Source: an uncultured Spartobacteria bacterium (GTDB lineage Bacteria > Verrucomicrobiota > Verrucomicrobiia > Chthoniobacterales > Chthoniobacteraceae). From it: 46,358 bases of DNA. The notes beneath the pieces were generated by a model. That model had not been told where the DNA came from. It did not search any database and was given only the letters and a program-made list of their open reading frames with translations. The stretch lies in the NCBI GenBank assembly GCA_903933715.1, contig CAIZLD010000051.1, forward strand, positions 1-46,358. Direction: 5' to 3'. Both the position numbers and the translations under genes were made by a program. This document shows, in pieces, positions 11,937-17,079 of this stretch (positions within the stretch are counted from its first letter, which is position 1; the number at the start of each line of letters is the position of its first letter).

Positions 11937-13655
11937 ATGGGAAACACTGAATTAGGGAAAAAGGCGGGCGCAGAAAATACAGGCAAAAAACCAGCTTTTC
12001 AAATCACCAAGGAACCGGTGGTTTACGGCAGGACCGGGGAGGATGTGCATAAATACGAAGCCACCTTGGGAGAACCGTCCGAAGCTCAGCCCGAAGCCCC
12101 CGCTTTTGAAGACCTTGGCTCGCTTCCTTCTTCTTACGGAACCAAATCGTTGTTCCTGGTCGCCCGCGATCCGCAATGGCTTTTCTGCTACTGGGATATC
12201 GACTGGAACGATTACCCCCCCTCCCGGATGCGGGATGGGAAAGTGCTCCTCAAACTCCACGACGCCACGACCGGCGCGGAACTCTATTCCAACCCGATCA
12301 GCCCCGATGCCCGGAACTGGTACATTTCGGCAGGCCGCGGCAACGCCACTTTTTATTGCGAACTGGGCTTCATTAATCAAGCCGGAGAATGGGAACAAAT
12401 CGTCCGCTCCAACGATGCCGCCACCCCTTCGGATGCGATTTCCGATCACGTCGCCGACACCTTCGCCACGGTTCCCTATCACCTGGCATTCCAGAAGATG
12501 CTCGATACGGTCGGCTCGGTGCGCGGGGCAGGCGAATCGCTCCTGAGCGTTTTGGCGCGGATCCAGGGGGAAGGCCGCAAACTGGCGTTCGTGCTGGAGC
12601 AGGCTCCCGAGTGGACCGACGAACAACGCCGCCTATTGGCCACCCTCCTCGGCAACAATTTCGACGAAATGATCAGCCTCGGCTCGGCCGAAATCGACCG
12701 TTTGCTGCGCAAACAATTGAAGCATCAACTCTTCAGCGAAGCGGGCAGCGGATTGCTGCCGTCCGGGGCGCCGGGGGGCATGACCAGTCTTTTCAGCGGG
12801 ATGGGGTTTGGCTTAAGCTCCTGGCTCGCCTCTTGGCAGGCGGCGGCTGAAAAAGGGGAAACCAGTTCCTGGCTCAGCTCCTGGCTGGGCGGCGCGGAAG
12901 TCGGCGCGTTCGCTTCCTGGCTGGCCTCGTGGCCCGGTGCGGCTGAAAGCCGCGAACTCAGCTCCTGGCTCGCTTCCTGGCCCGGCGCATCGGCACCCAG
13001 CAGTGCCTTAAGCTCCTGGCTCGCCTCCTGGCCCGGCGGCCAAAGCGCCGCCATCAGCTCCTGGCTGGCCTCGTGGCCCGGAGCCGCTCAAAGCAGCTTT
13101 TGGAGTTCCTGGCTCTCGTCCTGGTCGGTGGCGGCAGGCGCTTCCGAAACGCTCCAAAGCTCCTGGATGAGCTCCTGGCAAAACGCGGCCAAAGGCGAAA
13201 ACTTCTGGAGTTCCTGGCTGAGTTCCTGGTCTGGAGGAGCCGGAGGCCAATCGAGCTTCTGGAGTTCCTGGCTGAGTTCCTGGTCCGGCGGCATGGGTGG
13301 AGCTTCCGGCGGGATGAGCTCCAACCTCGGTGCAAGCTGGAGCGCGCAACCGTTCAGCAAACCGCGCGATTTCTTCATGCACGTCAACGCCGAAGTGATC
13401 TTCTACGGCGGCACGCATCCCGAAGCCAAAGTCTGGATCGACGACAAGCCGATCCAACTCAATCCCGACGGCAGCTTCCGGCATCATTTCATTTTCCCGG
13501 ACGGCGCCTACGAGATCCCGATTGTCGCCCAATCTCCCGACGGCCTCGAAAAACGATCGGCCACCCTCCGTTTTGAGCGCGGGACCGCCAGAAGCGGCCA
13601 GGTGGGAGCCACCGCGCAGCCCGCCTTTCTTGCCGAGCCGATGGGGCGGAAGTAA
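11937..13655 (+). CDS. DUF4912 protein with Trp-rich SSWLxSW tandem repeats
   Basis: This 572-residue protein of unknown function has four parts. Residues 1-60 are charged and probably disordered. A DUF4912 domain fills about 60-180 (SLPSSYGTKSLFLVARDP, then QWLFCYWDIDW). A helical linker fills about 180-290. At about 294-468 there are ten clear units and one decayed unit of 15-18 residues, each with the core S-S-W-L-[AS]-S-W and a Gly/Ala/Ser/Pro-rich spacer. A C-terminal beta-sandwich-like segment (about 475-550, FYGGTHPEAKVWIDDKPIQL and a FPDG turn) closes it. There is no signal peptide or membrane helix. DUF4912 proteins are known in several bacterial phyla, but their role is unclear. The fixed Trp-x3-Trp spacing suggests one aromatic face, possibly a sticky or structural surface. 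It stands alone and meets the ffs gene tail to tail. Confidence 0.9.
   Translation: MGNTELGKKAGAENTGKKPAFQITKEPVVYGRTGEDVHKYEATLGEPSEAQPEAPAFEDLGSLPSSYGTKSLFLVARDPQWLFCYWDIDWNDYPPSRMRDGKVLLKLHDATTGAELYSNPISPDARNWYISAGRGNATFYCELGFINQAGEWEQIVRSNDAATPSDAISDHVADTFATVPYHLAFQKMLDTVGSVRGAGESLLSVLARIQGEGRKLAFVLEQAPEWTDEQRRLLATLLGNNFDEMISLGSAEIDRLLRKQLKHQLFSEAGSGLLPSGAPGGMTSLFSGMGFGLSSWLASWQAAAEKGETSSWLSSWLGGAEVGAFASWLASWPGAAESRELSSWLASWPGASAPSSALSSWLASWPGGQSAAISSWLASWPGAAQSSFWSSWLSSWSVAAGASETLQSSWMSSWQNAAKGENFWSSWLSSWSGGAGGQSSFWSSWLSSWSGGMGGASGGMSSNLGASWSAQPFSKPRDFFMHVNAEVIFYGGTHPEAKVWIDDKPIQLNPDGSFRHHFIFPDGAYEIPIVAQSPDGLEKRSATLRFERGTARSGQVGATAQPAFLAEPMGRK
12816..13345 (+). repeat. in-frame tandem repeat coding SSWLxSW units
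   Basis: This degenerate tandem repeat inside the DUF4912 gene has units of 45-54 bp, most starting AGCTCCTGGCT or AGTTCCTGGCT. Unit lengths are multiples of three, so the frame is kept. Units 3-6 favour SSWLASWPG, whereas units 7-10 favour SSWLSSWSG with FW before the unit. This indicates two rounds of local duplication. The antisense frames are also open because of the repeat, but they are shadows. Confidence 0.9.
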
Positions 13656-13759: not shown

Positions 13760-13902
13760 GAATATCGGCGGAAAATTCGCGGATGACAATTTTTTTGTTT
13801 CAAACGGCTTGCATTAGTGCCCTTTGAAGGCTTAAAAGTATCCCGCTTATCGCGGCGCATTCTCCAAGGGTTGTGCCCCCCCCAATCAACTATCCATCCC
13901 AT

Positions 13903-14694
13903 ATGCCCAGTATCCCCCAGTTACCCAGAATTTTGCTCGGATTGGCCATTCTTCTCACGGCAGTTTCCGGTTTCAAAAATCTCGCGAACAGCAGCAAATT
14001 AAAGGGAGTCAACGAAGAGGTCGCCGCCGCGAATGACACTGCGGCCACCTTGAAGGCGGATAACAAAAAGATTCTCGACGAGGCCAAGGCCGCCAAGGAA
14101 GAAGCCAAGGCCGTTGCCGAAGCCAAAGCCGCCGCGGAAGCCAAAGCCAGCGCCGCCGCCGCGGAAGCCGATCGCGTCAAAAAGGATTTGGAAGAGGCAA
14201 CCGCCAAAGCCCAGGAGCAAGATACCAAAATCAAAGATCTCGAAGCCAAAGCAAACGCACCGGCGGCACCGGTCGTAGCGGCCACGCCCGATCCCGAACT
14301 GGTCAAAAAAGTGGCGGATGCGGAAGCGAAAGTCGCCGAAAGCGAGCAGCTTCTCAAAACCCTTCAAACCAAGAGCGAAGACGCCGAGAAAAAGGCAGCC
14401 GCACTGGAAGCCGAAAACGCCCGTCGCGCCGCAGGGCTGGCCAAACCGGGCCTCGAAGGCCGGATTCTGGCCGTCAACCCCAACTGGAACTTTGTCGTGC
14501 TGAACATCGGCGATCGCCAGGGGGTTGCCGCCAACTCCTCCCTCATCGTTCAACGCGGCGGTAACCTGGTCGCTCGTCTGCGCGTCACCTCCGTTGAGCC
14601 GTCCACCTCGATTGCCGACATCCAGGCCGGAAGCGTGCCCAAAGGCTCATTCGTTCAGCCCGGCGATCTGGTGATCTTCCCCTCCGGGTCTTAA
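13903..14694 (+). CDS. coiled-coil envelope protein with C-terminal beta domain
   Basis: This protein of about 263 residues has unknown function. A hydrophobic N-terminal segment (about residues 6-24, LPRILLGLAILLTAVSGF) acts as a membrane anchor or uncleaved signal. An Ala/Lys/Glu-rich heptad region (about 30-185) predicts a long coiled coil. A compact C-terminal domain (about 190-262) includes WNFVVLNIGDRQGV and a FVQPGDLVIFP ending. It resembles MreC-like or other small beta domains seen in verrucomicrobial envelope proteins, but the assignment is only by feel. A GTG at 13873 would add ten residues; the ATG is preferred because the hydrophobic segment then lies near the terminus. A 58-residue lipoprotein follows 105 bp downstream. 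Confidence 0.75.
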   Translation: MPSIPQLPRILLGLAILLTAVSGFKNLANSSKLKGVNEEVAAANDTAATLKADNKKILDEAKAAKEEAKAVAEAKAAAEAKASAAAAEADRVKKDLEEATAKAQEQDTKIKDLEAKANAPAAPVVAATPDPELVKKVADAEAKVAESEQLLKTLQTKSEDAEKKAAALEAENARRAAGLAKPGLEGRILAVNPNWNFVVLNIGDRQGVAANSSLIVQRGGNLVARLRVTSVEPSTSIADIQAGSVPKGSFVQPGDLVIFPSGS

Positions 14695-16868: not shown

Positions 16869-16953
16869 GGATCGACCGCTCCGCGGGCGATCTGGGACGC
16901 TCCTAGGAATACAAAAGGCCTCGCGCACTCCCCATCGCGCTCGGAGATCGCGT
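16869..16953 (-). repeat. GGGCGCGATGG dispersed element, copy B
   Basis: This reversed copy lies just upstream of ilvN. On the minus strand it runs from GCGATCTCCGAGCGCGATGG, through a diverged middle, to AGATCGCCCGCGGAGCGGTC and GATCC. It aligns at both ends with copy C (37934-38032). Its 5' end runs directly into the 13-bp tandem array. It is part of the 431-bp gene-free gap 16805-17235. Confidence 0.75.
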
Positions 16954-17079
16954 CCACCTGCGCGATCCACCTGCGCGATCCACCTGCGCGATCCACCTGC
17001 GCGATCCACCTGCGCGATCCACCTGCGCGATCCACCTGCGCGATCCACCTGCGCGATCCACCTGCGCCGTCAACTTGCG
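16951..17079. repeat. 13-bp minisatellite (CGATCCACCTGCG)n
   Basis: Eight perfect head-to-tail copies of CGATCCACCTGCG occupy 16963-17066. A 12-bp variant lies on one side (16951-16962) and a 13-bp variant on the other (17067-17079). The unit is the same sequence as the outer end of the adjacent dispersed element (GCAGGTGGATCGC on the minus strand), so the array probably grew from that end. Because 13 is not a multiple of three, it yields a 13-residue periodic translation that is an artefact. Confidence 0.95.

Follow-up and report, generated by a model that had tools for sequence, protein, structure and literature searches.

The DUF4912 domain (PF16258) defines a family for which Pfam gives no function, and our literature search found it mentioned in a single paper only, on an unrelated subject. 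The GH57 glycogen branching enzymes, whose gene is the neighbor of DUF4912 in most of the more distant relatives studied here, are no homologues of the DUF4912 protein; examples are AmyC (2b5d), TK1436 (3n8t) and TT1467 (1ufa). AmyC of T. maritima has been shown to be a glycogen branching enzyme (PMC6616209). A further comparison, made by description and as an analogy only, is with ESV1 and LESV, Trp-rich plant starch proteins that have many regularly spaced Trp, are tied to alpha-glucan storage and act on amylopectin, their surface Trp making CH-pi stacking contacts with glucans (PMC10219597). In ESV1 and LESV the Trp form strips, separated by acidic residues, along an extended beta sheet (PMC10219597), whereas the array described here consists of SSWLxSW units, is almost uncharged and is weakly modeled as short helices, unlike the known flat Trp platforms.

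The gene encoding this protein lies on the forward strand at 11937..13655 of the window, the whole stretch of 46 358 nucleotides that was analyzed. Its complete reading frame, including the stop codon, encodes 572 amino acids and was delimited from the open reading frame, Pfam and homologues. The gene hisF lies upstream in divergent orientation and a gene for a coiled-coil protein lies downstream. The gene is single copy in the source genome, where a search for a second copy or a similar array elsewhere found none. Residues 67–172 (12135..12452, forward strand like all features below) match positions 1–116 of the 118 in the PF16258 profile (E 2.9e-21, 76.4 bits against a cut-off of 29.4), so that the N-terminal domain is a clear family member, scoring above the gathering threshold; the Pfam domain spans about 106 of the 572 residues and leaves out both the array and the C-terminal domain. 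An AlphaFold2 model built on 48 sequences predicts this domain confidently as an FN3/Ig-like beta sandwich (pLDDT mostly 94–98), and its best structural matches are FN3 domains (Z up to 9.9, rmsd 2.7, 90 residues). Because the fold is common, such matches to a predicted model are uninformative about the ligand. A helical segment follows at residues 185–268 (12489..12740), with predicted helices at 185–195, 202–216, 228–238 and 250–268 of moderate confidence. The C-terminal beta-sandwich domain with its tail occupies residues 479–572 (13371..13652), its strands being predicted at 485–548 with pLDDT 82–98.

The layout given in the earlier note, with a repeat array between the DUF4912 domain and a C-terminal beta sandwich, agrees with both Pfam and the model. 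A weak likeness of the C-terminal domain to glucodextranase domain B (PF09136) is found in the relatives and not in the window's own copy: the domains of 11 out of 15 relatives weakly match Glucodextran_B/TcaA (E up to 1; best 3.3e-5), while the window's domain has no match to PF09136 at E up to 1 and matches only TcaA_3rd_4th, at an E of 0.033 that is below the cut-off. A sequence-profile search for a solved homologue of the array or the C-terminal domain returned nothing convincing. A secreted or membrane protein was rejected on hydropathy, which shows no hydrophobic N-terminus and no helix of membrane strength (best 19-residue Kyte-Doolittle mean 0.88), in line with the earlier description of a protein lacking both signal peptide and membrane helix, and we infer that the protein is intracellular.

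Ten units matching [SA]SW[LM][AS]SW make up the array at residues 294–449 (12816..13283), which is supported by its sequence, by purifying selection and, at low confidence, by AlphaFold2 models. The units start at residues 294, 310, 326, 342, 359, 374, 390, 408, 425 and 443, and are thus 15–18 residues apart. With 23 Trp in the 158 residues from 293 to 450 (15%), the array far exceeds the roughly two expected from the mean of 1.4% Trp in the window's other genes (binomial P 1.7e-16), and residues 294–470 hold 24. Ten Trp-Trp pairs at i, i+4 were counted in the array along with a spacing peak at 16 residues, so both the ten units and the more than 20 regularly spaced Trp previously reported are real. 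The proposed division into two A/S unit subfamilies is loose only, as units 3, 4 and 6 in the related genome G004 read [SA]SWLSSWPG. No paper turned up in the literature for the motif SSWLSSW.

Of the same 158 residues, 30% are Ser and just 10 carry a charge. This composition is one ground for a reading in which the Trp pairs are stickers in a low-charge Ser/Gly/Ala background, through which the protein would self-associate into oligomers, filaments or a condensed phase around glycogen. The models, which show one short helix per unit, would be compatible with it at low confidence. In the full-length model, the pLDDT of these helices is 53–69 in the first half of the array and below 45 in the second. 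Modeled alone, the array gave ten short helices in the best of five models (mean pLDDT 54, pTM 0.51), the other four reaching 36–42. The structure prediction proposed in the earlier note has therefore yielded a short helix for each unit, with low confidence, to be taken as a hint and not as a structure. In several families this linker holds SSW-type arrays of other kinds, as would suit stickers, yet the position-specific spacers and the invariant unit order described below exceed what a generic sticker array needs. We regard self-association as an improbable account of the array.

All five genomes of the window's genus carry the array, with 10 units in the window copy and 11, 11, 12 and 12 in the other four. 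The check proposed earlier, to count units in close relatives, thus finds the repeat in five out of five at 10–12 units. In the five-genome alignment, none of the window copy's array Trp varies, the spacers are position-specific and the order of the units does not change. Orthology across the genus holds for units 1–9 and for the last one, and the number of units varies at one site only, between unit 9 and the last, with gains of 0, 1, 1, 2 and 2. Across the genus comparison, dN/dS in the array is 0.07–0.18, as in the two end domains, and synonymous differences amount to 0.53–0.72 per site, near saturation. The invariant Trp, the low dN/dS and the near-saturated synonymous sites together indicate that the array predates the divergence of the genus and has been kept by selection at the protein level, which upholds the suggestion of a selected repeat domain. 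Recent duplication of the array as a whole, as read earlier from the similarity of the units, is rejected by this near-saturation between orthologous units. It can apply at most to units 9 and 10 of the window copy, the only ones with identical core DNA.

Relatives were compared as genome sequences only, mostly metagenome-assembled genomes (MAGs) where named; among the relatives of the genus, those with names are Spartobacteria and other Verrucomicrobia MAGs. Homologues of the DUF4912 protein are found in 55 of 57 related genomes and mostly share both end domains. In other genera of the family, the linkers are mostly 35–60 residues long with 1–3 Trp, and the motif GASWSAQPF directly before the C-terminal domain is kept in nearly all of them. 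The window copy has this anchor at residues 465–473 (13329..13355, from the homologue alignment), of which S467 and W468 are kept by at least 90% of 48 homologues, including those without the array. The sequence GASWSAQ at residues 465–471 had been described as a decayed unit; it is not decayed, and judged by its conservation it is an ancestral motif.

A search of 213 genomes of the order found the exact SSWLxSW array in the window's genus alone. The expectation that close relatives share the repeat holds in all five genomes of the genus, but the form is absent from the other genera of the family, and other families have long linkers at the same place with differing SSW-type repeats (spaced by about 8 residues in f9 and about 9 in f2). 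A member of f5 (L038:4602-6563, minus strand) has a long linker with the regular 12-residue repeat SSAEVTSFGAQT, which is Trp-poor, and L123:8549-9814 (minus strand, genome G316) has the unrelated Trp-rich linker repeat WPGSFAWPGS in a DUF4912 gene directly upstream of GH57. On a tree built from the end domains alone, Trp-rich linkers require four label changes, at least three of them forced by well-supported branches. Short linkers in most genera of the same family, and long-linker sequences that differ between families, would be expected if the array were an expanded spacer, neutral or in slow decay, that has no function of its own. Against this stand the Trp invariance over five species whose synonymous sites are near saturation and a dN/dS like that of the folded domains, which largely refute this account and leave it highly improbable.

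Among 289 genomes of the phylum, DUF4912 is present in 21 and the C-terminal domain of the GH57 branching enzyme (BE_C) in 25. All 21 genomes with DUF4912 also have GH57 BE_C (hypergeometric P 2.9e-28; since the genomes share ancestry, the value should not be read as one from independent events). Control genomes from Cyanobacteria and Thermotogota match both families as well. Of the 14 distant DUF4912 loci (eight genera), 13 have GH57 as the next gene 3' on the same strand, in most cases no more than about 110 nt away, and at the fourteenth it is on a different contig. GH57 also directly follows DUF4912 at L055 and L057, and is 2.4 kb away in six genomes of genus g4. The product of the neighboring gene in these relatives has GH57 and BE_C domains, with AmyC (2b5d) as its nearest solved structure. 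This adjacency is not found in the window's genus, where the two genes are unlinked on different contigs; the source genome G000 has both, DUF4912 on contig C51 and GH57/BE_C on C3. The genus also has CBM48-bearing enzymes besides these two.

Gene adjacency and constant co-occurrence suggest that the DUF4912 protein is probably a helper that grips either glycogen or the GH57 enzyme. An accessory role in GH57-dependent glycogen branching is well supported by this context, though by guilt by association. If the enzyme is what is gripped, the Trp motifs would be docking sites, with GASWSAQPF binding one enzyme molecule and the array recruiting several to one scaffold. The tight gene pairing and co-occurrence fit such docking, as do the near-invariance of the S467/W468 motif even in short linkers and the conserved, position-specific spacers of the array copies. 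However, the genus's GH57 is ordinary in length and Trp content, a search of it for a Trp add-on found no extra domain, and the arrays of different families differ in spacing and context. We consider enzyme docking doubtful, though somewhat less so than self-association.

Our preferred reading, to which we give a probability of roughly 40%, is that the DUF4912 protein is an intracellular accessory of GH57 glycogen branching whose Trp array serves as a multivalent glucan-stacking surface and tether. The protein would consist of two small beta sandwiches, with DUF4912 at one end, the C-terminal domain at the other and a charge-poor Ser/Ala/Gly/Trp linker between them that in the window's genus may have grown from one conserved SW motif to ten to twelve Trp pairs. 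These pairs could form a multivalent aromatic surface stacking on glucan chains, and the protein might in this way hold a glycogen particle near the branching enzyme as the particle grows. Trp is a usual glucan-contact residue, and ESV1 and LESV act on amylopectin; by this analogy, glucan stacking is the most likely role of the array. The idea of a carbohydrate-facing structure raised in the earlier note thus receives indirect support from the DUF4912–GH57 pair and its perfect co-occurrence, with the glucan contact itself remaining putative. Since most relatives with the same GH57 link have no array, the basic function does not require it.

For DUF4912, co-occurrence and operon pairing with GH57 provide a concrete, testable function. 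Studies of GH57 branching enzymes use the isolated enzymes, and their hydrolytic side activity in vitro could have to do with a partner that is missing there. Should the Trp arrays bind glucan, bacteria would repeatedly have evolved this way of organizing glycogen. A more speculative extension, which we think unlikely, is that in bacteria Trp-pair arrays evolved several times in one protein family to organize glycogen particles or the branching enzyme; on an unrelated and possibly helical scaffold, they would be a prokaryotic functional counterpart of the plant Trp-rich starch-organizing proteins.

Several minor observations concern the surroundings of these genes. At 18 of 40 loci, a gene of about 330 amino acids, by eye a tyrosine recombinase (XerC/D-like), follows DUF4912 on the same strand, at about +1.3 kb in L054, L056, L060, L062, L063 and others. 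Directly downstream of unlinked GH57 genes in several genera (L129, L132, L134 and L136), there is a conserved and apparently secreted protein of about 390–490 amino acids with the motif PPPxEGxISLGVYDxxGKLVRxL. In the window, the coiled-coil gene at 13873-14694 (forward strand), which has no Pfam match, adjoins the DUF4912 gene only within the same genus, and further along, at 16949-17067, the 13-base unit CGCGATCCACCTG is repeated in near-perfect tandem (9.2 copies, 99% match).
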